Assembly (NCBI GenBank): GCA_029834535.1
Contig: JAQMWT010000636.1
Span: forward strand, 1-28,011
From: Chrysophaeum taylorii
Lineage: Eukaryota > Sar > Pelagophyceae > Pelagomonadales > Pelagomonadaceae
Direction: 5' to 3'
Length of the DNA stretch: 28,011 nucleotides
The notes beneath the pieces are model-generated. The model was not told the DNA's origin, did not search any database, and saw only the letters and a program-made list of their open reading frames with translations. Below are positions 3,712 to 26,510 of this stretch, piece by piece. How positions within the stretch are numbered: position 1 is the stretch's first letter; the number at the start of each line of letters is the position of its first letter. Position numbers and translations under genes: made by a program.

Positions 3712-6243
3712 TCAGAGCTCGTCGTTCGCGGCGTTGTTAGGTGTCGACGTGGTTTTTTCCCCCAAGGGCTGTTTGGTGGCGGCGTCGTCGTCATCGTTGT
3801 CGCTTTTTGTGTTGGTGGCATTGAGGTTAGCGGTGGCGTTAGAGGGAGGTTTTGGGACGGGCTTTGGTTTGAGTTCAAGTTTGGCAGCCACGGTCGCAAC
3901 GGGCTTGAGTTTTGGGACGATGTCGGCAGCCAAGAAGGCAGGCGTCTCGTGTGGTAATTTCGCCGCCTGTGCCTTTACCATGTCATCGAGCCAGGTTTGG
4001 GCCTTGTCGATGTTGGCTTTGAGGTCGTCGAGGTCGTCGGGCGGGAGCCAGGGCTTGGATTTTGGCCAGTGGATGGTAGCGTTGGCACGGGCGAGGGCGA
4101 GGGCCTTTTTGGCGGCGTCGACGGCGTTGGGGCGTTTGGTGCTCTCCTCATAGCGCACGAGGATTGCACGCCAGAGGTCTTCGAGATGTATTCGTTTGCG
4201 ATCGACGTCGTCGATCGTCGCGTGATCCGAGTCGTAGGCGAGCCAGTCTTCGGCGTCTCGGCAGGCCTTGGCGATTTCGTCGCGCTGGTCCTGGGTCGAG
4301 ACAGTCGAGATGTCGGCGTCGCGTTCGGCGAGGGCGTTGCGCGTCGCGTAGATGGTGGCCTCGAGGTCGTTGAGGCGCTCAGCGCGCGTGACGCGCGCTT
4401 CTTCAGCGCGCGACACGGCTGCGAGCCGCGCCGTCGCCTCGACGGCATCCGCAACGAGCATCTCGTACGCGCGGTCGCCCGCCATCGTCTGCGCCACGCG
4501 GAGCGTCCGCTTCAACGTCGTCTTCTTCGTCGTCGCGTTGGAGGACGACGCCGCACCAGCTGTAGGCGTCGTCGTCGTCGTGTCGGGAGGGGTCGCATCT
4601 TCGGAATCGTCGACGGCAGCAACCTCGGCCTTGGTCAAGGTGGTTATGCCTGAGGCATCGAGCGAGAAGGACAACTGGACCTTGGGTCGGGCGGAGATGT
4701 TGTTCTTGGATATGAGGTCGGCCTTGAAGGTGGCGATGCCGGTGATATTGTAGCGTGCGATCGAGCGCGGGACGTCAAGGGGGGGGGGGTCGTCGTAGGC
4801 GAGCTCGCAGTCGACGTCAAAATCGTGCTGGAAGGCAATCGTCTTGGGCTTGCCGTTGAGTTTCGCGCCCGCCTTGAACAAGGTGGCGCGCTTCGAAAAG
4901 CCGTCGGCACCCCAAACGCGCACACCGACGGCGTAGGGGGCGTAATCGACGAGGCCGACCTTACGGACCCGGAAGCTTGTCGAGACATTGGCGCCGTGAA
5001 ACGCTGCGCCAAGCGCAACAGCCTCGTCGCCGTTCAGGTGGACCCCCAGCTCGAGCGGGGGCTTGGTACGCTGCGAGGCCAGGTAAGCCCGGAGCGTGTG
5101 CTGGACCTTGGGAACGCGCGCTCCCCCGCCGACGAGCTCGACGGCGTCGACGTCGTCGCACTCGAGCCCCGCCGCCGAAAGCGCCATGTCGACTGGAATC
5201 GCGAGCGCCTCGAAGACCGACGCCCCGGCCTCCTCGAGTGTGGCCCGTGTCACCGTCGTCGAAAAATCGACGTCATCGTGGAGCGACGGAATGCTCACGT
5301 GGTACTCGGTGTTCGCCGACAAGATCTCCTTGGTCTTGCGTGCGCTCGCACGAATCTTCGCCATGGGCCGGGCGAGCTCGCGAATACCGTACCCGACCTG
5401 CGCCTCGAAGCGCGAAGCCAACACCTCGCTCAACGCGAGGTCCAACGCGAAGCTCCCCGCTTCGAGCGACCATCCCTTCCCCACCACCTCCAGCTGCCCG
5501 ACCGTCTTGTTATTGCCGCCCGACGACGACGACAACGAGACGCTTCGCTCGACGTAAGTCGAATACTCGACAACGCACGCGCGCGCGCTCTCCGACCCCA
5601 CGTCGTAAAACATCACACGACGCTTCGTCTCGAACAACCGATCCAGCCCGAAATGCACGGCGGCGGCCGTCGTGTCGTCCACCAACGACAACACCCGCAG
5701 ATCGGCGAGCCGCGCGGCCGCAAGCGCTGCCTCGCGCTCAGCTTGTGTCCACGACCCCGGCACCGCGATCACGCAATCCCGAACGACATTTCCACCGTAC
5801 GCCCGCGTCATCTCCTTGGCGTAACTCAAGATCATCGCCACCAACTCCTCCACCGTCCACTCGTCAAACCCGAGAGCGCCGCGCGTCTCATTCACTCGCA
5901 CCCGACGGCCCAGACCAGGACTGTGCGATACGAGACGACGAACCGACGGATGACCCAATGACCTTCCCAGCAAGCTCGTCACCCGCGCGTACGACACCTC
6001 GGGCTTGCGCGACAACATCCCGTACGCATCTGACCCAAACTGACGCTCACCCCGGACAAACGCCACGGCCGTCTCTGTCTTACGCTTTGAAAACTCGTTC
6101 GTTACGATCTCCAGGGGCGCACCCGGCTGCACCAAAGCCACCTTCATGTTCTCGTGACCCAAATCGATCCCAATCACATTCCCGTGCACCTTGAACCACA
6201 ACAAACCTACCGATAACAACACCCGACGCACGCTCTCCCTCAT
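3712..6243 (-). CDS. HYOU1: ER-lumenal HSP70-family chaperone, HYOU1/Grp170 (Lhs1) type
   Basis: Large HSP70-family chaperone of the ER lumen, expected to act in protein folding and as nucleotide-exchange partner of BiP. The chosen start at 6243 gives MRESVRRVLLSVGLLWFKVHG, a good signal peptide; an in-frame Met ten codons earlier (6273) would make it less typical. The ATPase domain has phosphate-1 IDLGHENMKVAL, FYDVGSE in phosphate 2, and the adenosine motif ELVGGGARVPKVQ. A substrate-binding domain, a low-complexity T/A-rich loop and a long charged helical C-terminal region follow. The protein ends in NDEL, the ER-retention form typical of HYOU1. Length (843 aa) fits the family better than BiP (about 650). 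No introns or breaks are visible. Two CCACG motifs (6265-6274) lie just upstream; any link to the unfolded-protein response is speculative. Long open frames on the plus strand here are GC-driven shadows. Confidence 0.92.
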   Translation of the reverse strand: MRESVRRVLLSVGLLWFKVHGNVIGIDLGHENMKVALVQPGAPLEIVTNEFSKRKTETAVAFVRGERQFGSDAYGMLSRKPEVSYARVTSLLGRSLGHPSVRRLVSHSPGLGRRVRVNETRGALGFDEWTVEELVAMILSYAKEMTRAYGGNVVRDCVIAVPGSWTQAEREAALAAARLADLRVLSLVDDTTAAAVHFGLDRLFETKRRVMFYDVGSESARACVVEYSTYVERSVSLSSSSGGNNKTVGQLEVVGKGWSLEAGSFALDLALSEVLASRFEAQVGYGIRELARPMAKIRASARKTKEILSANTEYHVSIPSLHDDVDFSTTVTRATLEEAGASVFEALAIPVDMALSAAGLECDDVDAVELVGGGARVPKVQHTLRAYLASQRTKPPLELGVHLNGDEAVALGAAFHGANVSTSFRVRKVGLVDYAPYAVGVRVWGADGFSKRATLFKAGAKLNGKPKTIAFQHDFDVDCELAYDDPPPLDVPRSIARYNITGIATFKADLISKNNISARPKVQLSFSLDASGITTLTKAEVAAVDDSEDATPPDTTTTTPTAGAASSSNATTKKTTLKRTLRVAQTMAGDRAYEMLVADAVEATARLAAVSRAEEARVTRAERLNDLEATIYATRNALAERDADISTVSTQDQRDEIAKACRDAEDWLAYDSDHATIDDVDRKRIHLEDLWRAILVRYEESTKRPNAVDAAKKALALARANATIHWPKSKPWLPPDDLDDLKANIDKAQTWLDDMVKAQAAKLPHETPAFLAADIVPKLKPVATVAAKLELKPKPVPKPPSNATANLNATNTKSDNDDDDAATKQPLGEKTTSTPNNAANDEL

Positions 6244-6321
6244 CGCTGGAGAGAATAGCACAAGCCACGCCACGTACGTTAAACATTTTGGAGAACCGGA
6301 GTTTGGGGGGGAGGTTCAAGT

Positions 6322-8529: not shown

Positions 8530-9560
8530 ATGAAGCTGAGTTTTTGCCCGTGAAAGGGCTGAAGCGAAAGAGGAAGCGGCTCGACGAGAAGTTGATATGC
8601 TCAATGACGCCTTACAGCAAGAGATTGTGACCTCGAAGACCCTACGTGAAGAGGTTGTACGATTTTGTCGTAAACGAGATGATTTGTTAGCCGAACGTGC
8701 GCGTCGTGAGAGTAGCCGCGAACGACCCGTGAGTCCACCCGAACCGGAAACGCCCGTGAGACCGCCTGAACCGGAAAGGAACACTGAAACAGGGAATGAA
8801 CCTCCGCCCCGAGTCGATACGGAGACTGAGGGTAGGGCGGAAGTTGAGAATGAAGGTACGGAAATTTTACGGGAATTATCGCGGCGAATATCGCAGACGG
8901 TTACGGACGCCTTCGAAAAGGGCAACTTGAGCCGATCCCGTCGCCCCACCTCCAGTTTGAAGCCTGACAACTTCAAACTCGTCATCGACGGCCGAGATCA
9001 ACGGCGATTCAATTTGGATTCGGCAGCGATGATGCATACTTTAGCAGATGACCATTACTCGGTCGAGAAATTACGTTACCTACTACCAGTGCATATACGG
9101 GACACCGTTGCACCAATTTTTGAGGAGCACTTGCAGAAATACGAGGAGCTCTGCGATGAGCTACCGCACGGTCCGTCGTTTTACTTGAAATTGGATGCTG
9201 ACGATGAAGAGCATGGAGCCTCGGTTCGTCGCATCCGTCGTCTTAATAAGACGTATTGCGACAAAATTCTGGATTACTTTAGATCGACATCCCGACCTCC
9301 GAGCACGCAGCAGGAGCTGCTCGACAAGCAGGGGAAGGTCACCCAGGCTTCAGTTCCGAAGAAGTCTGGGCAGCGGCACGTCCAGACGTATTGTACCAGA
9401 TTCCAATCGGAGGCCTTGGAGTTTTGTTCCGTGTCCAGCCGCACGATTGATGATGTCGATATCCTCGACCAGCTTATCAGTGGATTGACATCCAAGGAGT
9501 TGAGGACCCGTATGCGGACTATGAGGAGCGGACATCCTGATAGTTACTTGACTTTTAAGT
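8530..9560 (+). pseudogene. gag: Gypsy-A Gag, N-terminal part
   Basis: Gag-like structural polyprotein. An open frame from the Met at 8597 starts with a coiled-coil, Arg/Glu-rich stretch, then a Pro/Glu linker (PPEPE repeats), then a helical capsid-like region (SYLTFK at its right end). The coiled coil extends upstream in the same frame. An ATG at 8530 would join it if one T of the run at 8541-8545 were extra, so the true start may be 8530 with a 1-base frameshift. At 9560 the frame is interrupted by a SINE-like insert; the next part resumes at 9967. It lies between leader and protease as expected for gag. Sequence similarity to a named Gag family is not evident by eye. Confidence 0.65.
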
Positions 9561-9966
9561 GAACCCCTAACCCTGCGATCGCTAACCGTTGGTTGCGATG
9601 GAGGACGGCGTCTAACACGCTTGCTCCCTGCGGCGGCCCCGGCCGTCCCGGAGTGAGACGGTGCCTGCTCGCCTCCCGGGCTGGCCGGTTAGCACCCGGA
9701 AAGTCCGCGCTGGGCTGGGGTTCGCTCGGTTGGGCAGAACGCGACGGACAGGTCGATTGTTCGTGGACCAACACGTTTGCGGCCTGCGACGCTCTTGCAC
9801 GACTTCGCACAAGACCGCGCGCAGTGGCGGTCCGTCATCAACGAGTCCTCGTCCCTCGCCTCTGCCCCAACTGCGTGATTGTCCTCTGTGATTCCGGATC
9901 GGCTCCTGCCTGTCCGGCCTGGCTCCCATGCTCGGGAGAGGCCTGGAGTTAGTTAGTTAGTTAAGT
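9561..9966 (+). mobile_element. SINE-like insertion 1 (in Gypsy-A gag)
   Basis: A 400-bp GC-rich insert flanked by TTAAGT at 9555-9560 and 9961-9966. Removing insert plus one duplicate joins AAG to TCG ATG in frame and restores continuous Gag. Its right end has a hairpin CTCCC-ATGCTC-GGGAG (about 9929-9944) and a tail GTTAGTTAGTTAGTTAAG. About 60 bases from GTGATTCCGGA to the tail match insertion 2 in the copia element (18248-18393). Weak A/B-box-like strings (TGGCCGGTTAG and GGTTCGCTCGG) lie near 9681 and 9720. Tail repeats, 3' hairpin and short TSD fit a SINE mobilised by a LINE. Confidence 0.8.
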
Positions 9967-12323
9967 CGATGGTGGCGCTTATCACGCGGCTCGAGAACGA
10001 CTTGCGAAAGTTGACGGAGGAGGAGAAGGACCAAGGCCCTCCTAATCTGAAATCGAATAAACCGCCGCGAGGGCGGGGAGGTCGAGCTATGGCCTCCGAT
10101 CAACAAGCCAAGCAAGATGCGGATAAACCGTCTGGGAATACGGATCCGCTGATCTTACGAGATCCTTTTTTGTGGGGCAAGACGACGTGCAAGGACTGCG
10201 GATTCTTCTGGACCACCCATGATGAAGATGAACACGGAAATCGCGTGGTTTGCAACCGCGATCCGGATCGTTCTTACTGTCCGATGTGGAAGCGCATTCG
10301 TAAGCAGAAGAAGCAACCCATATCGCGTTCCGATTGGGCGAAGCGCGATGATGCATCTCATGCGAACGCCACGCGCGGATCGGAGCCTTCTAAGGAAATT
10401 CAAACGGCCCTCACCGATCTTGGAACCACAATGGCGACCATGGTGAGCGAGGTCAGAGGCATCAAGGATGGCAAGTCGTCTTCTACACGACAGCGAGACG
10501 GACGATCACCTTCTAGACGATCGTCGCGCCGACATCGAAGCCAGAGCCCTGATCGAAAGGCAAATACCCCTCAAACCAGCCCGAGTCCCCGCCGTCGCCG
10601 GAGCTCTAGTCGCAATTCGCGCCGGCGCCGACGTCATCGACATCACGATGACGAGTATGACGGAGGTCGATATCAGGATAGTTCGGGACATTCGAGCGCA
10701 AGTTTCGCGTTCCAATCTTTATGCGACGCGCCGCCATCGTCGGGAGTTGTCTTTTACCCGACGGCGCGGCCCGCCCGAGTCTCCGATGATGTTGCCGATG
10801 TCGCTGTGACGAGCAGCCATCGTTTGCAACAGGAGCAAAATACCACCAACGCTCGGATCGTTCGGTGGCCTTCTACATCGTATGTGGAAGCAATATCAGA
10901 TGCTACTTTGGATTCTCCGCACTACTGGGAAGACTCAGATTCGGAGACCGACGACCCCATGCCGCAGGTTCCAGTGTCCCCCCATTCGTCAATGTGCATG
11001 TCTTGCAGGGCAGTTCACGATGATGACGTTAGACCTTATGAGTTGACGTCGGGGACGACGTCTTCTTTTCCTACGGGGCCCCCCGAGACAGTTTTAGCCG
11101 ATGCCGAGACCGTTTTAGCCGATGTTTTAGCCGATACAGTCTTGGTCGCAGCAGAGCAGACCACAGCGGCGCCGATGGAGGAGAAGTTGACGGAAATGTC
11201 CGATTTGATGGACGAGAAACGACGATTGCTAGAAGAGATAAAGGAGGAAATATATGTGCCTCCGATTGAGAAGCGTCAGAATTGGTTGTCAGCGAAACTG
11301 GGGAATGAGGAAGCAGCCGAAGCGGCGAGCGCCAGTATAGATTCAGAGGCGAGATGTGGAACGCCAGATATGGCAGCGGTGACGATGCAGATGCCGGGCG
11401 ATGCGAAGCCGGAGATACGATGTCATCACACTGCACTTTCGCCGAGCGATGGGGAAAAGATCGAGCAAGACCTCATCACCATCGGTTTTCTGGACCCTGG
11501 TACACTTACGTTTATAGTTGGTCATATTTATAGACGACGAGACGGGCCGAAGTTCGCAACGACTTTAGGCGTGGATGGAATGGCTGATGTCTCCTATATT
11601 TGTCGTGGGATGGTCGAAAAACTGGCAAAGGATAGCATCATCCTTGACCGGGGCGATCTTCCAGTCGAGCGCACACTGTACGGGTCAGGGTTGAATAAGA
11701 CGACTATCCACAAATGGGTCGCATTGCGGATTGCGCTTGCGGACGACGTGGCCGTTCCAGTTGTTGCTATTGTGGCCGATACTAATCATCTATTTTTGCT
11801 GGGAGCGCGCGATATTCGGGTGTTGGGAGGCATAGTGGACTACCCGCGAAATCGCATTGCGTTTCTCCGCACACAAGTCGCTTATGGGCGCAAGAAGTTA
11901 AAGGTGCAGGATCGACGAGTCGATTCTCCGATTTTGACGTTCAGAACAACTTATGACGAGCGCAATCCCGTGGTAGTTCAGGTTTATGGGCAACAGCACC
12001 GTGCGATGCAAAAGAGCCCGAGCACAGTTGAGAACCGAGTCTACGCTCGCTTGTGCAAGATTGAAGACCTCCAGCGTCCACCGCCGAAACGAGCGGCAGC
12101 TTCGACGACTTGGGGAATCCCTCCAGTTACGCCTTCTCAAAGTTCGAACAGCGATGCCTATGAAGTGCTAGCCTATGCTGCGCGCACGATGAAGGTCGAG
12201 CCTGGGCGCACCTACTGCGTGCCAGTCGCTCTTTCAGAGCCCATGGAAACTGGGCGAGTTTGTTGCTACGTCTTCTGGGTACGAGCAACTCGGGGTAGTC
12301 GATGGGATGTGTTCTTCTCCTGA
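9967..12323 (+). pseudogene. Gypsy-A Gag C-terminus and aspartic protease
   Basis: Continues Gag after the SINE-like insert. Numbering from the Met at 9969: a Cys/His cluster at residues 74-104 (CKDC, two His, two further Cys) is probably the nucleic-acid-binding finger. An SR-rich basic region lies at about 165-225, then an acidic linker. The protease domain is at about 520-640: its active-site string reads VDGMADVSYI (codons 11571-11600, Asp at residue 536), where retropepsins have D-T/S-G-A, and the second hallmark is LLGARDIRVLGGIVDY. Gypsy-B shares both features. The frame stops at 12323, but homology to the post-protease region continues in another frame from about 12301, so a frameshift lies there. 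Confidence 0.8.
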
Positions 12324-12627
12324 GGATCATGATAAGTTCGCAGCTCGAGTGGCGATATCCTCTACCCAGGATGTGCCGACCGTGATTACTCAAGGTGAAG
12401 TCCTTGCTTTGGGCGATATTGTTCGTTTTGATGACGAGCTCAATGCTGAGACGGTCGACGATTTAACGAAGGATGGTGATGCCGAATCTAACAAGGCTAG
12501 CCTATCATTCACTGTTTCGGTCGTAAGCCATCTGACTCAAGGCGATGCGGCTCCCGAACCGATGCTTTTGAGCTCGGTGCAGAAGGCGCCTCCTTCTGCC
12601 GATAAGAAGAAGAATTCTCGTCAATAA
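12301..12627 (+). pseudogene. Gypsy-A post-protease linker domain
   Basis: Continues in a new frame after the shift near 12300. The pattern of beta-strand-like segments and the VITQGEVLALGDIV block resemble the segment after protease in Ty3/gypsy polyproteins. Gypsy-B has the equivalent at 20760-21040 (VPMVEGQIISHEG). An in-frame TAA at 12625-12627 separates it from the methyltransferase part, which stays in the same frame. Confidence 0.55.
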
Positions 12628-12950
12628 TCGCTCGGTAACGACGATTTCGACCGACGAGCTGACGAGGAGGAAAAGAAATGCCGAGAAGTTACAGAAGGCG
12701 AGATTCGCCGAAGGTTTGAAAAGGTCCACTGGGTGCCGATCACGTATCGCAAGGTTGTGATGCTCTTTAGCGGCGCCGGAGGAAGTACTTTGGACTGCAA
12801 CGAGCGAACGAGTTGTGCGGGACGTCGTTTCGAGTCGCCCTTGCTCTTGACTCGTCGACAGCTGCCAACAAGGCTCTGGAGAGATTTGACCCTCTCCGGG
12901 TACATGGTAGAGACTGCGTGCAGTCTTAGGCGTGTACAGACCATTCCGCT
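12628..12950 (+). pseudogene. Gypsy-A C5 cytosine methyltransferase, N-terminal fragment
   Basis: In frame after the TAA, a charged stretch leads to VHWVPITYRKVVML and then FSGAGGSTL (12766-12792), C5-methyltransferase motif I (SAM binding). A 1-base shift near 12792 moves the continuation to another frame, where NELCGTSFRVALALD carries motif II (acidic residue for SAM ribose). Both match Gypsy-B (IPITHTFVVV, FAGAGGSTLG, NELYGTSFRVVLAL). The element is cut off at about 12930-12950, before the catalytic PPC motif, where copia-derived sequence begins. The fragment is dead but shows that this element had the same domain order as Gypsy-B. Confidence 0.8.
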
Positions 12951-18545: not shown

Positions 18546-19124
18546 CTGGATTGCTTGACCGCCATTCAAGAGGCGCTGTTGCTCCCTTGCCTACCTCGAG
18601 CTACGGCTGCGGAACTGGAGAAGGAATGGTTCAATCTCGAACAAGGTAATTTGCCACTCACCAAATATATCACTAAGTGGGTCCAGAAGTTTGGACGATG
18701 GCGAGCAGCATCAGGACGAAATACTGATCCCGCCTCGTTTCGGTCGCATTTTATCGCGGGGCTCAATTCTGAGCGTTTGCGGACAAGCGTCGAACTTGCC
18801 CAAGCTTCGCCTCGCGTGAAATCAGCCGATCTTACGCTCGACGATGTCATTCAGCTGACCGTTCAAGTTTCCAAGATTCTGGAAGCTAACCCAGCAGCTA
18901 ATATTAAGGATGCGATCAAGAAAGAGAAGATTCAAACGGAGCGCCCGACGCGGAGGAGGAAAGAATGGGCGCAGCAACAGCAACAACAGCGGGCTGGTTC
19001 TGTTACTGATTCGGGCCTTGGCTGCCCCCAGGGATTGACTCCAATTCGCGTCAAGCGGCTACGACGTGCCTTGACCGTGGGAGGAATGGCAATCTTGGCC
19101 ATGAGAACGGGACTTGCCCTCTAA
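18543..19124 (+). pseudogene. gag: Gypsy-B Gag fragment (5'-truncated)
   Basis: Open frame resembling a retrotransposon Gag capsid: ELEKEWFNLEQGNLPLTKYI, WVQKFGRW, then FRSHFIAGLNSERLRTSVEL. The N-terminus, leader and 5' LTR are missing; the frame starts right at the junction with the copia element. Near 19030-19065 the reading shifts by one base: in the next frame a zinc-knuckle-like string follows (C at 19066, His at about 19099, Cys at about 19114), in which the second Cys of the finger is Arg. A second shift near 19230 returns to the original frame. Confidence 0.7.
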
Positions 19125-19244: not shown

Positions 19245-20573
19245 GTGACCCAGCGAACGCCACCCGTAGTGCAACAGCCACAGGTGGTCTACACAGCTGC
19301 ACAGGACACAGGTGCAGGCCAACAGCGAGTAGTCGCAGGCCCTCAACAGCACTTGGTTGCAGGCACTCAGCAGCAGGTGGTTCAACAGGAACCCGCAGCT
19401 CCGCAGACCGCGCAGACTTCGGTGCGCCTAGAGGATTTGGCGACGGCTCTCAATACGATGTCTTTGATACGTCAGGCGCAGACGACTCAAGCGACGAGGG
19501 AGCCGCCGTCACAGAGAGCGAACACTAGTAAGCGCAATGATGGATCCGCCGCTCGATGGCTCGAAGTGCCTGGAGATGACCAGGACAGCGCTAGCCGCTC
19601 TGACCACTGTGCGGTTCGGAACTCCGAGCTCATGGAAGGTAACGTATCTGATGGTGATGATGCTGGGGGTGACGATGATAGCTTTTATGCAGGAGGCTAC
19701 TTTCATGGTGAACCCATGAAGCCACCTTCCTTTTTGGTCATCACTGAAGATGCGTGGATGGCGGAACAGGGGCAGGGTACTGAAGTGTCTAAGATCCCAC
19801 CAAGAGCTCTCTCGGGAAGTGAAGTCGAACGCTGCGGATCGGAATATCCAATCGTCCTCAGGAGACGGGACACAGTGGTTGCTATTGATGTAGTGCCACC
19901 GAGGGAAGACTTTACCGAGCGTTCCGCTGTCTACCCCTCCATTTTATCGGATTTTGAGGATTTCTGCCCTCAGACCGCGCTGACCACCGCTCAAGGTTCA
20001 GATCGTCGTGAAAATAAGGCAGTGACGTACGATGGGACAAGATCCGCTTGCTTGACATACGTGCCTGTGGCTGTCTCTTCTTTAGATGGTTCGACGTATT
20101 CAGTCATCGCTGCCGGCTTGGACGGCATGGCTGACTCGCCGTATATCGATCACCGCGTATACAGCAGACTTGATCGTGACGGCAAAGTCATATATCGTCA
20201 ACCGCTTCCCACGACTCGTACTCTGAACGGATCAGGAGGTTCGGGCGCTGCTATCCGAGAATGGATCATCCTCCGGATTTCCTTGGCGCCAGGGACATCA
20301 ACGCTATTGATGCTATTTGTAGGACAGACGAACGGGCACTTACTTTTGGGAGCACGAGAGCTACGACTATTGGGTGCTATTTTGGACTATACGTCGGAGA
20401 CGGCCATTTTTCGACGCTCCGAAGTAACCATTGGAGTTGTCAAAAATCGGACCTCCAATTTGCCCCAAGACCAGCAGGGGGTTGTCCTCTACAATGAGGC
20501 GTTCGATGCGACTCCGACGGTAGTGCCGATGTTCCCGACGGCCAAGCGTGCCGTACAAGACGGAAATACCTAG
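19245..20573 (+). pseudogene. Gypsy-B Gag C-terminus and aspartic protease
   Basis: 442-codon frame. Residues 1-90 are Gln/Pro-rich, followed by an acidic linker. The protease domain (about 265-420) has LDGMADSPYI (codons 20118-20147; Asp at residue 293), then TRTLNGSGGSGAAIREWIIL and LLLGARELRLLGAILDY. Alignment with Gypsy-A is colinear through the whole domain, including the unusual D-G-M-A in place of D-T/S-G-A. The frame ends at 20573; the post-protease part continues in another frame, so a shift or stop separates them. The reading frame may really begin upstream, since it is part of the Gag frame. Confidence 0.8.
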
Positions 20574-20611
20574 CACTGGAGGCCATTCAATCCTCCGTGG
20601 AGCTATGACAG

Positions 20612-21262
20612 TTGGTCGCGCTCTATTCGTCCAGAGCCAATCACCAGCGAACCTACCGAGGGGGTTCCTGTGGGGATTCCTTGTTGGGCGATGACGGTCG
20701 TGAGATTACCGAAAAGCCGGGTGACCAACCTCAACGCCCTCCAGAGGACGAAGACGCCGTCCCGCATTTTGCGTACGTTACTGATACACGCTTTCTTCTT
20801 CCTAGCCAGCCGTATTTGTTGGAGCTTGAGTGTGATGTACCGCTGCTGAGAGGCCAGGCGCTCCGACCTTATCGGGCACTCCACCCGGATCTTCGTGTCA
20901 TACCAGGATCCTTCTCATCTTATTGCCCACAAGAACCCAGCGAAGTTCACGTCGCTGTGGAGCATGTTGGTGAAGGACCCATTGGTATCGACCCTGAGGT
21001 CCCTATGGTCGAAGGACAGATCATATCGCACGAGGGATGCGTCAATATGCATCTGGAAGCCGCTGTGGACGTTTGTTATGCGATGGCCGTGGGTGATGAA
21101 AGCGAAACTGGAGTTGAGGAGGACGTCTTAGGTGACAGATCTCCTCCTGAGCCCCCTCCGGGTGATGAAACGAAAAAAACACCCGAAATGGAGATGGAGG
21201 CGACTATCAAGGACCTGCTAGCTAAGCACGCTTCCTTGGTTTGGATACCCATTACACACACC
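20612..21262 (+). pseudogene. Gypsy-B post-protease linker domain
   Basis: Same frame as the methyltransferase that follows. It includes TDTRFLLPSQPYLLELECDV, then EPSEVHVAVEHVGEGPIGID and VPMVEGQIISHEG. Alternating hydrophobic strands and a final basic/acidic linker (PPEPPPGDETKKTPE) resemble the beta-rich segment found after protease in Ty3/gypsy elements. It corresponds to 12301-12627 in Gypsy-A. Confidence 0.6.
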
Positions 21263-22110
21263 TTCGTCGTCGTCTATTTTGCCGGCGCTGGTGGATCAAC
21301 TTTGGGCATCCGACGATGCAATGAGCTTTATGGCACATCATTTCGCGTTGTCTTAGCTTTGAACTCTTGCCCACAGGCACGAGCTACTTGTGAGCTCAAC
21401 TTTCCGAAGATTCCCGGTATCCTTCATGAGTCGGGCAGATCTCATCGTCGTACGTACGACTTGGTATTGTCGTACTTTCACCCGGACTATTGGAAGCACT
21501 CCTATTTTCATGCGAGTCCTCCGTGTGTCTACGGATCGACCGCTAACCTACACTACAGGGACGCGCGGAAAGGCGCTGCAATCACCTCTTGGGTCTTGCG
21601 CCACTTCAGGAATGCACCCTACGTGATCGGACGGTGGACGTTGGAACAGGAGCCATCTGTGATACCGTTCGTGAACTACAGCTTTTATGTCCCGTGCGTG
21701 GTCGACGCTCATAGTATCACGCCAGAACTGCGGTGTTCACACACGCGCCTACTTGCAAGCAACGTTCGGTTGTCACTGCCACTCTTGACACGCGCACCAC
21801 CTAACCTTCAGGATCGCTTTGGACCTGCATTAGGATTTCCAAGTGGCCACCCGTTGATTATCGTCAATGGCTTCTCGTCTACGCGATTGGCCATCGGCTC
21901 GCCTCTACAGTGACGCGCAATGAATTGCAGATGGGACATCCTTTCTCGAATACACGCTCACTTTCGTTGAAGATGCACCAATAAATCATGACCGTCCCTC
22001 CCACGTGGCAATGGGGTGAGAAAGTGTCACAGACAGCAGCTATGAAGATGCTTGGCAGCATGGTGCCACCCGCGACTACGACGCGGATCGCGCTGGCAGT
22101 GCATAGTTCA
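21263..22110 (+). pseudogene. C5 cytosine DNA methyltransferase domain of Gypsy-B
   Basis: Compact domain of about 280 residues. Motifs in order: I, FAGAGGSTLG (21278-21307, SAM binding); II, VVLALNSCPQA; IV, ASPPC with the catalytic Cys at 21524-21526; VI, WTLEQ (usually ENV); VIII, VVDAHSITPELRCSHTR; IX, LTRNELQMGHPF-like (about 21910-21945); X, MLGSMVPPATTTRIALAV from 22048 (usually GNxVPP). The main frame ends at TGA 21911-21913 and motifs IX-X are in the next frame; a third frame is also used between 21950 and 22015, so at least two indels break it. Motif II has Asn where an acidic residue is usual, while Gypsy-A keeps Asp. It lies between protease and RT. Such enzymes methylate C5 of cytosine in DNA. 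Confidence 0.85.
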
Positions 22111-22723
22111 TTTGACCCTTCGATCCGAATTCTTGGTAAGTTGCGGAATATTGTGACGACAACGATGGCAAATCTAGAGCATCATGTTTTAAGGTTTTCA
22201 CCCTTCGTTATCGAGTCGCGCATTCCAACACTTGACCCCGGCACCCGAAGCGTTTCATGGATCCTTCGAGGTGAACTGTACTCGCACGCTAGTCCAGCAC
22301 CCAGTACTGCACCATCATCTGCGCCCACCACCACCCCGCCACCACCTTCGGGTATATCGCCTGGCACGGCACCATCTTTTGCAGGGGGCACCGTCGCCAC
22401 TGCTGTTATGCAGAGCTACCACACCAGCAACCAAACCTCCGCAACCGCTGAAGAAGAAGGCACCGCGAAGGAGCGACCCGCGTATTTCAATAAGTACGAC
22501 GTTCCGTGGGCGGACGCGCCTCTCGACGAGCATGGTCAGCCTTTGCCAGCGATGCCTCCTCATTTGGCTGATCAGGATAGCATGAAGGTCATCAATCCGA
22601 CCGTCGTGCAGGTCGATGAGGTGATGGCTGAGTTAGATATTACAGAGCATCCTGCATAGGATTATAACGAGAAACTGATGACTGAAACATCTTATCTCGT
22701 ATTCGTGGGCATTTTTCGATGAT
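22111..22723 (+). pseudogene. Gypsy-B linker between methyltransferase and RT
   Basis: Continues the motif X frame to a stop at 22657-22659. A Pro/Thr/Ser/Ala-rich spacer (about 22290-22420) is followed by a more conserved-looking segment with YFNKYDVPWADAPLDEHGQ and PTVVQVDEVMAELDIT. No known domain is recognised. The last 60 bases up to the RT have stops in every frame. Confidence 0.5.
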
Positions 22724-23585
22724 GTGATGAGGCCTGTTGATTCACCCGAGGTTACCCTCCGGTTAAAAGAAGAGAACCCGACCCCCATCAAGCTCTCGCC
22801 GTATCGGTTGTCGAAAGAAAAGATTGAGTGCCTTAGGCTGCAAATCGTGGAATGGACCCGAGACGGAGTTGTCCGTCCCGTGAACTCTCCGCAGGGTTCC
22901 CCAATTTTGATGTTGCCCTAGAAAGGAGCTGAGCCAGCCACTTCCAGCGCTTAAGGGGCAGCTGTCGACCTGCGGCGTCTCAATGCATTGCTCAAGGATG
23001 ATAGCTGGCCGAGCGTGAGCATGGCCGACGCGTTGATGTTTCTCATCGACAAAACCTGTCGTTCGAGTTTCGATATCAGATGGGGCTATCGCAATTTGCG
23101 ACTGTCCTAGATGCGCAGGATGTGGTGACCTTCACCAGTCATTTGGGAGCATTGAGCTACACGTGTCTACCTTTGGGAGTCGAACCTGCTGGAAGTCTGT
23201 TCTGCAAGCAACTGAACCGACTTGTCGAAGTGGCTATATCGTGATCTCGTGGCATATATCGACGATATCCTTGCCGGTCACGCGGATACAAGGAATCATC
23301 TGCAATGCCTCGTGCAGGTTATTCCCCACCTTGCCTTGAAAGGGCACTGTGCCAAGAGAAAGAAGATCCACCTTATGAAAGAAGTCATCGAGTTTCTGGG
23401 TCATTTGTCCACACCGAACGGACTTCTTCCATCACCAAGGTCTTTAGAAGCCATCAGGCACATGCCAATCCCGGGCACTTTGCCAGATGCTGACCCTAAG
23501 AAGCAAGTGTGTTCCTTCCTTGGAATGGGGAGCTTCTGCCGTCGCTGTGTGCGAAACTTTGCGAAAATTAATGACGTTAAGACAG
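22724..23585 (+). pseudogene. pol: Gypsy-B reverse transcriptase
   Basis: Ty3/gypsy RT in several frames. Blocks in order: PIKLSPYRLSKEKIE and DGVVRPVNSPQGSPI; VDLRRLNALLKDDSWPS; SSFDIRWGYRNLRLS (holding the first catalytic Asp); then, in another frame, VTFTSHLGALSYTCLPLGVE; then in the first frame again LVAYIDDILAGH with the catalytic YIDD (near 23255). The thumb follows: EVIEFLGHLSTPNGLLPSP and CSFLGMGSFCRRCVRNFAKI. A TAG at 22919-22921 and at least three frameshifts make it inactive. Confidence 0.88.
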
Positions 23586-24150
23586 CTGACGTTGCCCGAC
23601 GTGAAATTCGAGTGGACGAAAGAGTGTCAGGAGGCCTGGGATGCAATCATTGGGGCAATTGTCACTTATAAAGGAGCCTACCATCCTGACTACTCGCTAC
23701 CCTTCTACATTCGAACTTATGCTTCCGCCCACGGATTAGGTGCTTACCTATTTCAGAAAGTACCAGTCGTTGACGACGATGTGAAAGAACGAGAGGAAGA
23801 GAGAGTCACTGAGTATTGGAGTCGAACTGTGCCCAAATCGATGGGGAAGTATGACCATCGGCGCTTGGAACTCCTTGCAGTACTCTCAGCTCTTGAGAAT
23901 TACCGCTTTTACATCGAAGGACATCAGACGAAATTGGAGACAGATCATCGTAATTTGACGTTCCTTCGGGATTCGAACCACACATCTGGACAGTTAGCGC
24001 GATGAGCTATGCGGCTTGCTGCATTTGACCGGGAGCTCGGATACAAGCCCGGAAATTCCCCTGGCATGCGCATCCCTGATTGCTTGTCGCGCAATCCCAT
24101 CGATAAGCTCTTTGAGCAAGATGAAGACGCAGAGTCGGTCAATGAAGCTT
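23580..24150 (+). pseudogene. Gypsy-B RNase H
   Basis: Follows RT after a frameshift near 23580. LPFYIRTYASAHGLGAYLFQ is the first RNase H motif, in which the catalytic Asp of TDAS is Tyr (codon TAT at 23718-23720). DHRRLELLAVLSALENY keeps the Glu and LETDHRNLTFL keeps the next Asp. A TGA at 24003-24005 (LAR-stop-AMRL) replaces the usual Trp codon of the LARWAL block. The domain then runs to GNSPGMRIPDCLSRNP at its C-terminus. Confidence 0.85.
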
Positions 24151-25400
24151 ATTCGATCTTTCAGGAGATTCCGACTGATGTTCCTGGCACAGCTTGCTTC
24201 ACCTTCTCTTCGGTGACAATGCCTGTACCGACGGACAGCGAGCCTACCTCGGCACTGGCAGCAGTTAGTACGCATCAAAACGTGCAGCCACCTCAATTTG
24301 CGTACGAATCCGACCAGTTGACCCCGTCGAACGTCCCCCTTTTGCAGACCAAGCTTAAGATGAGATCACCCTCGAGGAGATTGCCAAAGAGCAGACTGGG
24401 GACAAAACTTGCAGGCGAATCCGGCAAAACCGATTCGGAGCAGGAAGATCGAGACGAGCAGTCACCAATACTGTACGAGACTGACAACAATGTTTTGTAC
24501 AAAGTCGATGATTCAGACTCTCGACGTCTTATTGTGGTACCTCAATCGATGCAAAAGCGTGTAATCGCCATGCATCATCGAGGACTGTTTGGAGGCCATA
24601 TAGGACGAGATTCCACAGCGAATCAGATTTTGGAACGATATTGGAGGCCGAACATCCCATCTTCGGTCAATGAGTTCATCAGTGCTTGCATTGTCTGTCA
24701 AAAAGTTCGATCCACCGTGCCTAAGCGCCATGGCTTACTGAGCCAACCGAATCGCATCGGGGATTGCTATGTCCTAGGCATGGATCTTATTGGACCATTG
24801 CGATGTGCTGACTTGCACACGTATATCCTCGCGATGTACGACGGGGCTTCGCATTTTCGAAAACTGGCTTTGATTAACACCAATCATGACTACTCGATTT
24901 TGACCGCGTTTGCGGACAAGATTTTGCTCGAGGGATGTCACCCACGGTGTATAGTTGCGGATGATGGATATGAGTTTGCGAACAAGTTGTTTCGGACGTT
25001 CGTTCGTCAATTTAATGTCGGGTATCGAACTACCATCCCTTATCACCCTCAGAGCAATCACACCGAGCGTGTCAACCTATTCATCAAAGCCTTCTTGAGG
25101 GCTGCGATTGGTGAGCAGCGTCAACCGGATTGGTCGATTTTCATCCAGTATGTTGCGTTCGTGTACAACCGTATGTATATCCCTGGAACGAAAATCTCAC
25201 CTTTTATGATGCGTACCGGCAAGCAACCCCTGTTACCTCCTAGTTACAATATCTTGAGCGAACAGCGCGGTCTGCCTCAATCGCGTCAGCAGATACTGAT
25301 GGACTTCAAGAATAAGTTTGAACTTTATAGTCGTCTCGTTACACGAGCTCACCAAAAGGCCTAGGAGCGCCAGAAGATCAACTACGATGCTCACCAAATT
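24151..25400 (+). pseudogene. Gypsy-B integrase
   Basis: Retroviral-type integrase in frame with RNase H. The zinc finger is H-x6-H-x29-C-x2-C (HHRGLFGGHIG ... CIVC). The core has Asp in GMDLIGPL (24783-24785), Asp in VADDGYEF (24960-24962) and Glu in NHTERVN (25065-25067). D-to-E spacing is 34 rather than 35: one residue seems lost in the loop before TER. The frame is open from 24009 to TAG at 25362-25364, where a Gln codon is expected (KA-stop-ERQKINYD). It is the best preserved part of the element. Confidence 0.9.
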
Positions 25401-26072: not shown

Positions 26073-26084
26073 GTAGGGGGCTCC
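26073..26084 (+). other. Candidate polypurine tract
   Basis: AGTAGGGGGCTCC lies immediately before the TGTGGCGGCAAC start of the LTR-like sequence, which is where plus-strand priming is expected. Confidence 0.5.
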
Positions 26085-26510
26085 TGTGGCGGCAACGCCT
26101 ACCCCCCAACTTACCTGCCTGTTACTTTCCTCTTACCTTGCTTGTTGCTCTGGTACTGGCCTTGCCATTTTGGGGGGGTGTTACCTTGACACCCTCGCCT
26201 GCTATTCCACTGAAACCAATGTACCAAGAATTTGTATTGCTCCTTGCTATTACCGTCAAAATAATTGTCTGATCTCGCGATGGCGCGAGCGTATACGCGG
26301 AGATTGGGCGTGTGGTGGTATCACCCGTGGTTTGGGCTGGGTGAAAGGGTTCGTTGTGACTGTGGCGGCAACTCCTGACCGCTAAGGCTTGCCCCGCTCC
26401 TCAATGCTTACACCCGTTCAACAGAACCCCTTTTCCTTACTTTCGTGTGACGTCATGGGATTCTATCCTACTGACATCACCCTGTTCTCTCGGTAAGAGT
26501 GTATAAGTGC
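26085..26510 (+). mobile_element. Gypsy-B 3' LTR-like region
   Basis: Begins TGTGGCGGCAAC at 26085, right after a purine tract. A second TGTGGCGGCAAC start at 26361 begins 130-150 bases shared with 7590-7700 in the Gypsy-A leader. So the LTR may start at 26361, or two LTR-type sequences may be in tandem. A perfect CRE palindrome TGACGTCA is at 26448-26455. The right side is cut by Helitron copy 3 at about 26511. No 5' LTR exists here to confirm the ends. Confidence 0.5.

Follow-up and report, generated by a model that had tools for sequence, protein, structure and literature searches.

A predicted C5-cytosine methyltransferase domain within the Pol polyprotein of Ty3/Gypsy retrotransposons of an algal genome

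Comparison of copies across one 70.8-Mb genome identifies a segment of a Ty3/Gypsy element as a predicted C5-cytosine methyltransferase (MTase) domain of its Pol polyprotein, and establishes the domain's place in Pol, its copy number and its conservation. The segment was read in the window, the whole stretch of DNA analysed (positions 1-28011 of contig C636), and on balance we lean towards a role in which the domain methylates the element's own cDNA or its insertion site. Retrotransposons are commonly countered by cytosine methylation, and an LTR element that keeps a DNA methyltransferase of its own therefore turns the question round. The finding brings in an algal lineage alongside the dinoflagellates and charophytes, with carriers in two LTR superfamilies of a single genome.

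The window's Ty3/Gypsy copy, of a clade here called G1, lies on the plus strand from 18555 to approximately 26400 and comprises, in order, the end of gag, a protease-like stretch, the MTase segment, reverse transcriptase (RT), RNase H, integrase and a 3' LTR. Upstream lie remnants of a second Gypsy element, which belongs to the sister clade G2. The features are as follows.

8552-9556, plus strand: gag remnant of the second Gypsy element, G2 (tblastn of L057 gag, 30%)
11373-12881, plus strand: G2 remnant with a protease-like stretch (11373-11840) and the first part of an MTase (approximately 12685-12881, FSGAGGSTL; tblastn of L058 and L057)
18555-19124, plus strand: 3' part of gag, G1 (L040 gag matches 18555-18956 at 48.5% identity by tblastn)
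20040-20480, plus strand: protease-like stretch, G1, assigned at motif level (hub LDGMAD at 20118-20135, then LLLGARELRLLGAILD)
21239-21913, plus strand: predicted MTase domain, motifs I to VIII (open frame closed by TGA at 21911-21913)
21914-22110, plus strand: predicted MTase domain, motifs IX and X (other frame; frame change and stop just before 21985)
22260-22470 (ends approximate), plus strand: proline-rich linker from MTase to RT, by reading
22682-23569, plus strand: RT of Ty3/Gypsy type (PF00078 on 23216-23668, 23.1 bits, below the cut-off of 29.6)
23577-24005, plus strand: RNase H domain (PF17919, E 1.5e-19; PF17917, E 2.7e-18)
24006-25364, plus strand: integrase, H2C2 zinc-binding domain and core (rve) (PF17921, E 8.3e-15; PF00665, E 3.6e-5, below its cut-off)
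26084-26400 (ends approximate), plus strand: 3' LTR (matches the LTR of copy C421 at 76% identity over 26104-26356; polypurine-like AAGTAGGGGG upstream)

The G1 copy is truncated at its 5' end: the 5' part of gag and the 5' LTR were not found within the window, where the 5' side of the copy abuts a truncated Copia remnant on the opposite strand at approximately 18561 (blastn; L041:2662 corresponds to window 18561). Matches to RNase H and the integrase zinc-binding domain exceed their Pfam cut-offs in the window, and those to RT and the integrase core fall below. The RT aligns with that of L040 in one frame at 75% identity (tblastn) and is interrupted by stops at 22919-22921 and just before 23216. 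The Pol frame of L040 matches the window in five pieces, in frames 3, 2, 1, 2 and 3, with stops in addition (tblastn); the window's G1 copy is therefore dead. For the G2 remnant, tblastn of L058 and L057 against the window gave no match beyond 12881 up to the G1 copy. Adjoining the G2 gag is a repeat of approximately 400 bases with a (TTAG)n-like end (9568-9963), which is also present in L045, L060 and L043 and sits inside the MTase of copy C367. A probable host gene occupies 3712-6315 on the minus strand, with an 867-aa frame containing an Hsp70 domain (PF00012, E 4e-74).

Within the window's segment, a single open frame (20609-21913) holds FAGAGGS (21278-21298), SPPC (21515-21526), EQE (21644-21652) and SHTR (21737-21748), which we take to be motif I, motif IV and VI-like and VIII-like stretches of C5 methyltransferases; MTVPPTW (21988-22008) and LGSMVPP (22051-22071), presumably motifs IX and X, lie in another frame. 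As originally predicted, the segment spans motif I at 21278 through motif X at 22071, and the predicted motif order (I, IV, VI, VIII, IX, X) is present in the sequence, across two frames and with EQE, not ENV, at motif VI. The 224-aa piece of the window scored 11.4 bits against PF00145 (E 0.21; cut-off 22); neither the second piece (motifs IX and X) nor the 434-aa and 224-aa window ORFs gave a match to this family. Because its pieces fall under the cut-off, the window alone is no proof of an MTase. The window copy also has N and H at the motif II Asp and the first Arg of RxR, both invariant in an alignment of five Gypsy MTase rows from G1 and G2.

In contrast to the window's own pieces, all 13 of the open-frame G1 domains scanned match PF00145 (best E 6.6e-10; 38 bits for L034). 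They come from the 30 G1 loci L009-L038, in 15 of which the domain is open from motif I to its end, L012 and L024 being left out of the scan. In L040, a natural frame of 1930 aa encodes the MTase (28.5 bits) together with RT (RVT_1, residues 1068-1231), RNase H (1302-1439) and integrase (H2C2, 1611-1669; rve, 1692-1781, the latter below cut-off), and in L039 the MTase (30.8 bits) is likewise found with RT in a natural frame. L058, a G2 element with a 2972-aa frame, contains RT, RNase H and integrase in one Pol, with rve above cut-off; its MTase scores 18.4 bits in the whole frame, below the cut-off, and 25.3 bits as the domain alone. The uninterrupted frames of L040 and L058 bear out the proposal of a C5 MTase inside a Ty3/Gypsy polyprotein upstream of RT, and the order MTase-RT-RNase H-integrase, sought among the genome copies, is found within the one natural frame of L040. 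The MTase domain of L057 (G2) has no Pfam match, yet it aligns throughout with the other Gypsy MTases. Compared by hhalign, five Gypsy MTase domains align with four other MTases from motif I to motif VIII (probability 97.6, E 3.3e-12). The five-row alignment is invariant at FxGxGG, NFP, PPC, EQE, RxR and PP, and the catalytic Cys of motif IV is present in all 30 G1 loci, the window included (PPC in 29, PSC in one), as well as in both G2 rows. With the NCBIfam model TIGR00675 (dcm), whose cut-off is 100.65, three Gypsy domains scored 18.3-22.6 bits, and L057 and the window had no match.

The segment had been described as flanked by protease and RT. The RT side holds; on the other side, the stretch upstream of the MTase is protease-like by its motifs. 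The hub D-G-M-A-D is found in all four aligned rows of the two Gypsy clades at 30-35% identity (window 20118-20135; L040, L041, L057, L058), where the retropepsin hub is D-[ST]-G-A. The stretch has no Pfam match, and its PDB matches are only to eIF1, at E 0.46 or worse.

The genome encodes at least 102 MTase stretches related to the window ORF 20609-21910 (G1; 97 of 877 candidates scored, a few copies giving two rows). The L040 RT finds at least 137 matches (137 of 1087 candidates scored), 90 at 82-100% (G1) and 47 at 62-64% (G2). In the G2 frames L057 and L058 the MTase is at the same Pol position as in G1, with 35-39% MTase identity between the clades, and the L058 domain detects at least 118 G2 stretches (118 of 1060 candidates scored), 95 of these 118 listed without a stop by hand count. 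A listed MTase lies upstream on the same strand for 51 of the 90 G1 RTs, 32 of them at a distance of 876-901 bp, and upstream for 24 of the 47 G2 RTs, at 559-585 bp. Among the 23 G2 RTs with no listed MTase, the three inspected all carry MTase sequence (whole in L057; from residue 102 or 181 on in the other two, within the 1.2 kb fetched). Copy C421 has direct LTRs of 332 and 328 bp that are 93.1% alike, and the LTRs of copy C311 match over 177 bp at 96.6%; no LTR pair was established for copy C225. On contig C634, a G2 RT occurs together with an LHC-like gene (L001; best PDB matches VCPI-6, FCP8 and PCPI-8), and it is on this ground that we call the host an alga.

Some copies do lack the MTase. 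Of the 39 G1 RTs without a listed MTase, four were inspected: two have one and two do not. The exact junction of an MTase deletion is found at four places, all among these 39 (C209:18565-18587, C248:16362-16384, C335 (L061) and C394 (L062)), with C84 as a fifth match with three mismatches. At the two junctions read, those of L061 and L062, 1108 bp (L040:5616 to 6723) are replaced by a single A, in frame in L062. The RTs of the four MTase-less copies are 95-98% identical to that of L040; C394 bears a second large deletion. Splicing as the source of these copies was rejected, as the missing piece reads GAAGCC...CACCG, not GT-AG, and an extra A is present. Most simply, the MTase was lost once and the shortened element then multiplied, alone or with help in trans. 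Four copies share the exact deletion, which speaks against a strict need for the MTase in every copy, unless these copies receive help in trans; since the MTase-less copies share one deletion and the sister clade has an MTase, the domain is most simply ancestral to G1 and G2. Copies without the segment, which the original prediction had named as evidence against it, exist at the four exact junctions, but they trace to one common deletion and G2 retains the MTase. That nearly identical elements occur naturally with and without the MTase makes the enzyme's purpose directly testable.

How the domain has been maintained bears on what it may do. By simple NG86 estimates, which are rough where dS exceeds 1, dN/dS between L040 and L041 is 0.062 for the MTase (282 codons), 0.059 for RT (100 codons only) and 0.092 for the protease-like stretch, with 0.215, 0.222 and 0.232 for the spacers and tail and 0.455 for the L040 counterpart of the proline-rich linker; dS between G1 and G2 is not estimable. 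The MTase is kept by selection as strict as that on RT. For other MTase pairs between subfamilies, the window's included, the values are 0.07-0.12. The 36 pairs within subfamily A have a ratio of means of 0.26, close pairs range from 0.10 to 0.40, and the very close pair L034/L035 gives 0.64 on few changes.

In the reading that we prefer, the MTase would travel in the virus-like particle, since a single polyprotein yields it along with RT and integrase. It would methylate cytosines, either in the double-stranded cDNA or at the site of insertion, before or during integration, and the mark on new copies may hide them from the host's handling of foreign DNA, or tune that handling. Counting against this reading are EQE at motif VI with the altered motif X, the MTase deletion shared by four copies and a CpG record with no clear trace of deamination.

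Three other functions can be considered. The domain might methylate RNA, either the primer tRNA or the element transcript, in the manner of the Dnmt2 family, whose C5-MTase fold acts on RNA; we regard this as unlikely. The five weak matches of a PDB profile search with the five-row Gypsy alignment include a tRNA (cytosine-38-C5) methyltransferase (E 2), and, in the accessible text of PMC5890265, the DNMT of a Symbiodinium LINE element gave no DNA methylation in yeast, with RNA suggested as its substrate. However, better matches in the same search are cytosine-specific methyltransferases (8yf3, E 0.017; 3g7u, E 0.33), the first of which is colinear with the Gypsy MTase at motifs I-IV and IX-X and is also found with a single Gypsy domain (E 0.04). 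Moreover, the Gypsy domain has a stretch of its own between motifs VIII and IX, the interval that contains the target recognition domain in DNA MTases.

Alternatively, catalysis may have been lost and the domain retained as a structural or nucleic-acid-binding module of Pol. Motif VI is EQE in all five aligned Gypsy rows, whereas the other MTases compared have ENV, and motif X, usually GN, is GS, AS or AA; these replacements make an altered activity possible. Such a loss is nevertheless improbable in our estimation, given that PPC, the glycines of motif I and the RxR pair show no variation among the five rows, that dN/dS is as low as for RT, and that motif VI keeps its first, catalytic Glu.

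Instead of cDNA, the enzyme could target the wider host genome, or it could act on copies of the element as a self-restraint that lessens damage to the host. With 220 Gypsy and 118 Copia MTase stretches listed, the dose would be large, and self-restraint has been proposed for published elements (PMC5890265, in its accessible text). Against this, to which we give little credence, CpG depletion is absent: the observed/expected ratio ranges from 1.02 to 1.34 over nine element stretches, and two host loci have 1.26 and 1.46. Pairwise C/T differences within subfamily A likewise give no clear deamination signature, amounting to 7.7% at CpG, 7.7% at CpT, 5.7% at CpC and 4.6% at CpA, and on the opposite strand to 7.8% at CpG, 7.9% at GpG, 5.3% at ApG and 4.2% at TpG, such that CpG is not above CpT or GpG but is above the other four contexts (4.2-5.7%). 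The absent trace would fit recent copies, good repair, methylation in another context or an absence of methylation. Finally, an artefact, either a chance resemblance of motifs or a chimeric assembly of a gene and an element, could account for the window pieces being under the PF00145 cut-off, but it is refuted by the matches of all 13 copies, by an order that recurs on tens of contigs at near-fixed distances and by its presence in two diverged clades.

A Copia family of the same genome also carries an MTase, in the order gag, a protease-like DGGAS stretch (motif by reading, with no Pfam match), MTase, a weak integrase match and RVT_2.

L059:3097-8952 (C96), L042 (C120) and L060 (C314): Copia carriers, with a predicted C5-MTase between the protease-like stretch and integrase

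The Copia MTase matches PF00145 (38.6 bits in L042, 32.1 in L059), has TLPCQ at motif IV and ENV at motif VI, and is found in 118 listed matched stretches at 111 places. A whole-genome search with PF00145 returned at least 57 matches (123 of 474 candidates scored): 48 belong to the Copia family (46 overlapping Copia rows, plus L003 and L005 by tblastn), two are L001 and L002, and seven are others. None of these coincides by eye with a Gypsy row, and, as the search scores some of the candidates, we draw nothing from this silence on Gypsy copies. L001:1498-2577 and L002:1006-3537 are further C5-MTase genes (67 and 61 bits), outside elements as far as read. Comparison of the Gypsy and Copia MTases by hhalign found no kinship; because the Copia alignment also failed against known MTases, this silence is no sign of separate origin. 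Rather, it is the place and motifs of the Copia MTase that suggest a separate capture. More broadly, and tentatively, retroelements may have captured C5 MTases at least twice (between protease and RT in Gypsy, between protease and integrase in Copia) from a non-Dnmt3 source, now in more than 330 stretches; it is conceivable, if less than probable, that LTR elements of this lineage repeatedly evolve self-methylation of cDNA as a passport to the host genome, and that a small sublineage lacking the MTase exploits the enzyme made by related copies.

A protein-database search with the five-row Gypsy alignment found one MTase, P0001 (317 aa, PF00145), which we read as bacterial; neither the G1 alignment A1 nor the MTase portion of the L040 polyprotein retrieved a match. 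P0001 shares DLFAGAGGSS at motif I and SPPC with the Gypsy MTase, and together with 8yf3 and 3g7u it is the best database match; unlike the Gypsy domain, all three are stand-alone enzymes, and P0001 has ENV and approximately 34% identity over 32% of the Gypsy domain. In the PDB, neither alignment A1 nor a single Copia MTase domain retrieved anything useful. A contig scan of other genomes with the five-row alignment revealed no relative; scans of viral contigs (IMG/VR) yielded the MTases L049 and L050 with alignment A1, at 31-35%, and none with the Copia MTase.

As the original prediction noted, retrotransposons bearing DNMTs have been reported from dinoflagellates and charophytes: the accessible text of PMC5890265 (de Mendoza et al. 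2018) describes them in Symbiodinium, within DIRS and LINE elements, and in the charophyte Klebsormidium, within a Gypsy element. There, de novo CG methylation by the element's DNMT was demonstrated for SymbioDIRS-Dnmt3, and methylation of cDNA before integration was proposed for dinoflagellate DIRS. SymbioDIRS-Dnmt3 and SymbioLINE-Dnmt resemble our element in being retrotransposons with hundreds of DNMT copies, but they are of the DIRS and LINE classes, with a Dnmt3-related enzyme in DIRS, whereas ours is an LTR Gypsy (PMC5890265, same portion). KnitGypsy-Dnmt3 of Klebsormidium nitens is likewise an LTR Gypsy with a C5 MTase in the Pol ORF under purifying selection (its Ka/Ks < 0.2). As far as the accessible text of PMC5890265 goes, its MTase is of the Dnmt3 class and its repeats are arranged as in DIRS, whereas ours has SPPC or TPPC, direct LTRs (C421), a different host and no Dnmt3 among its PDB matches at E <= 10, in searches that barely reach any MTase. 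Sola1-1_Ec32 of Ectocarpus, as presented in the accessible part of PMC12477816, is also a DNA MTase on a mobile element of a stramenopile alga, and has ParB; unlike ours, it is a DNA transposon in which a separate gene encodes a predicted N4-cytosine or N6-adenine MTase. Novelty is narrowed by two further reports, of which the portions available mention DNMT3 embedded in 'LTR Copia and DIRS' elements (PMC12344493) and Ty3/Gypsy and DIRS elements encoding DAM and DCM in several groups, including stramenopiles (PMC6338049). Titles and abstract openings of the literature covered, with preprints and most subscription papers outside its scope, mention no LTR element of an ochrophyte-like alga with a non-Dnmt3 C5 MTase between protease and RT. 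Retrotransposon DNMTs are thus known already, a Gypsy among them; the element described here appears to be another version, and its putative MTase is likely a separate acquisition from those of the published elements.
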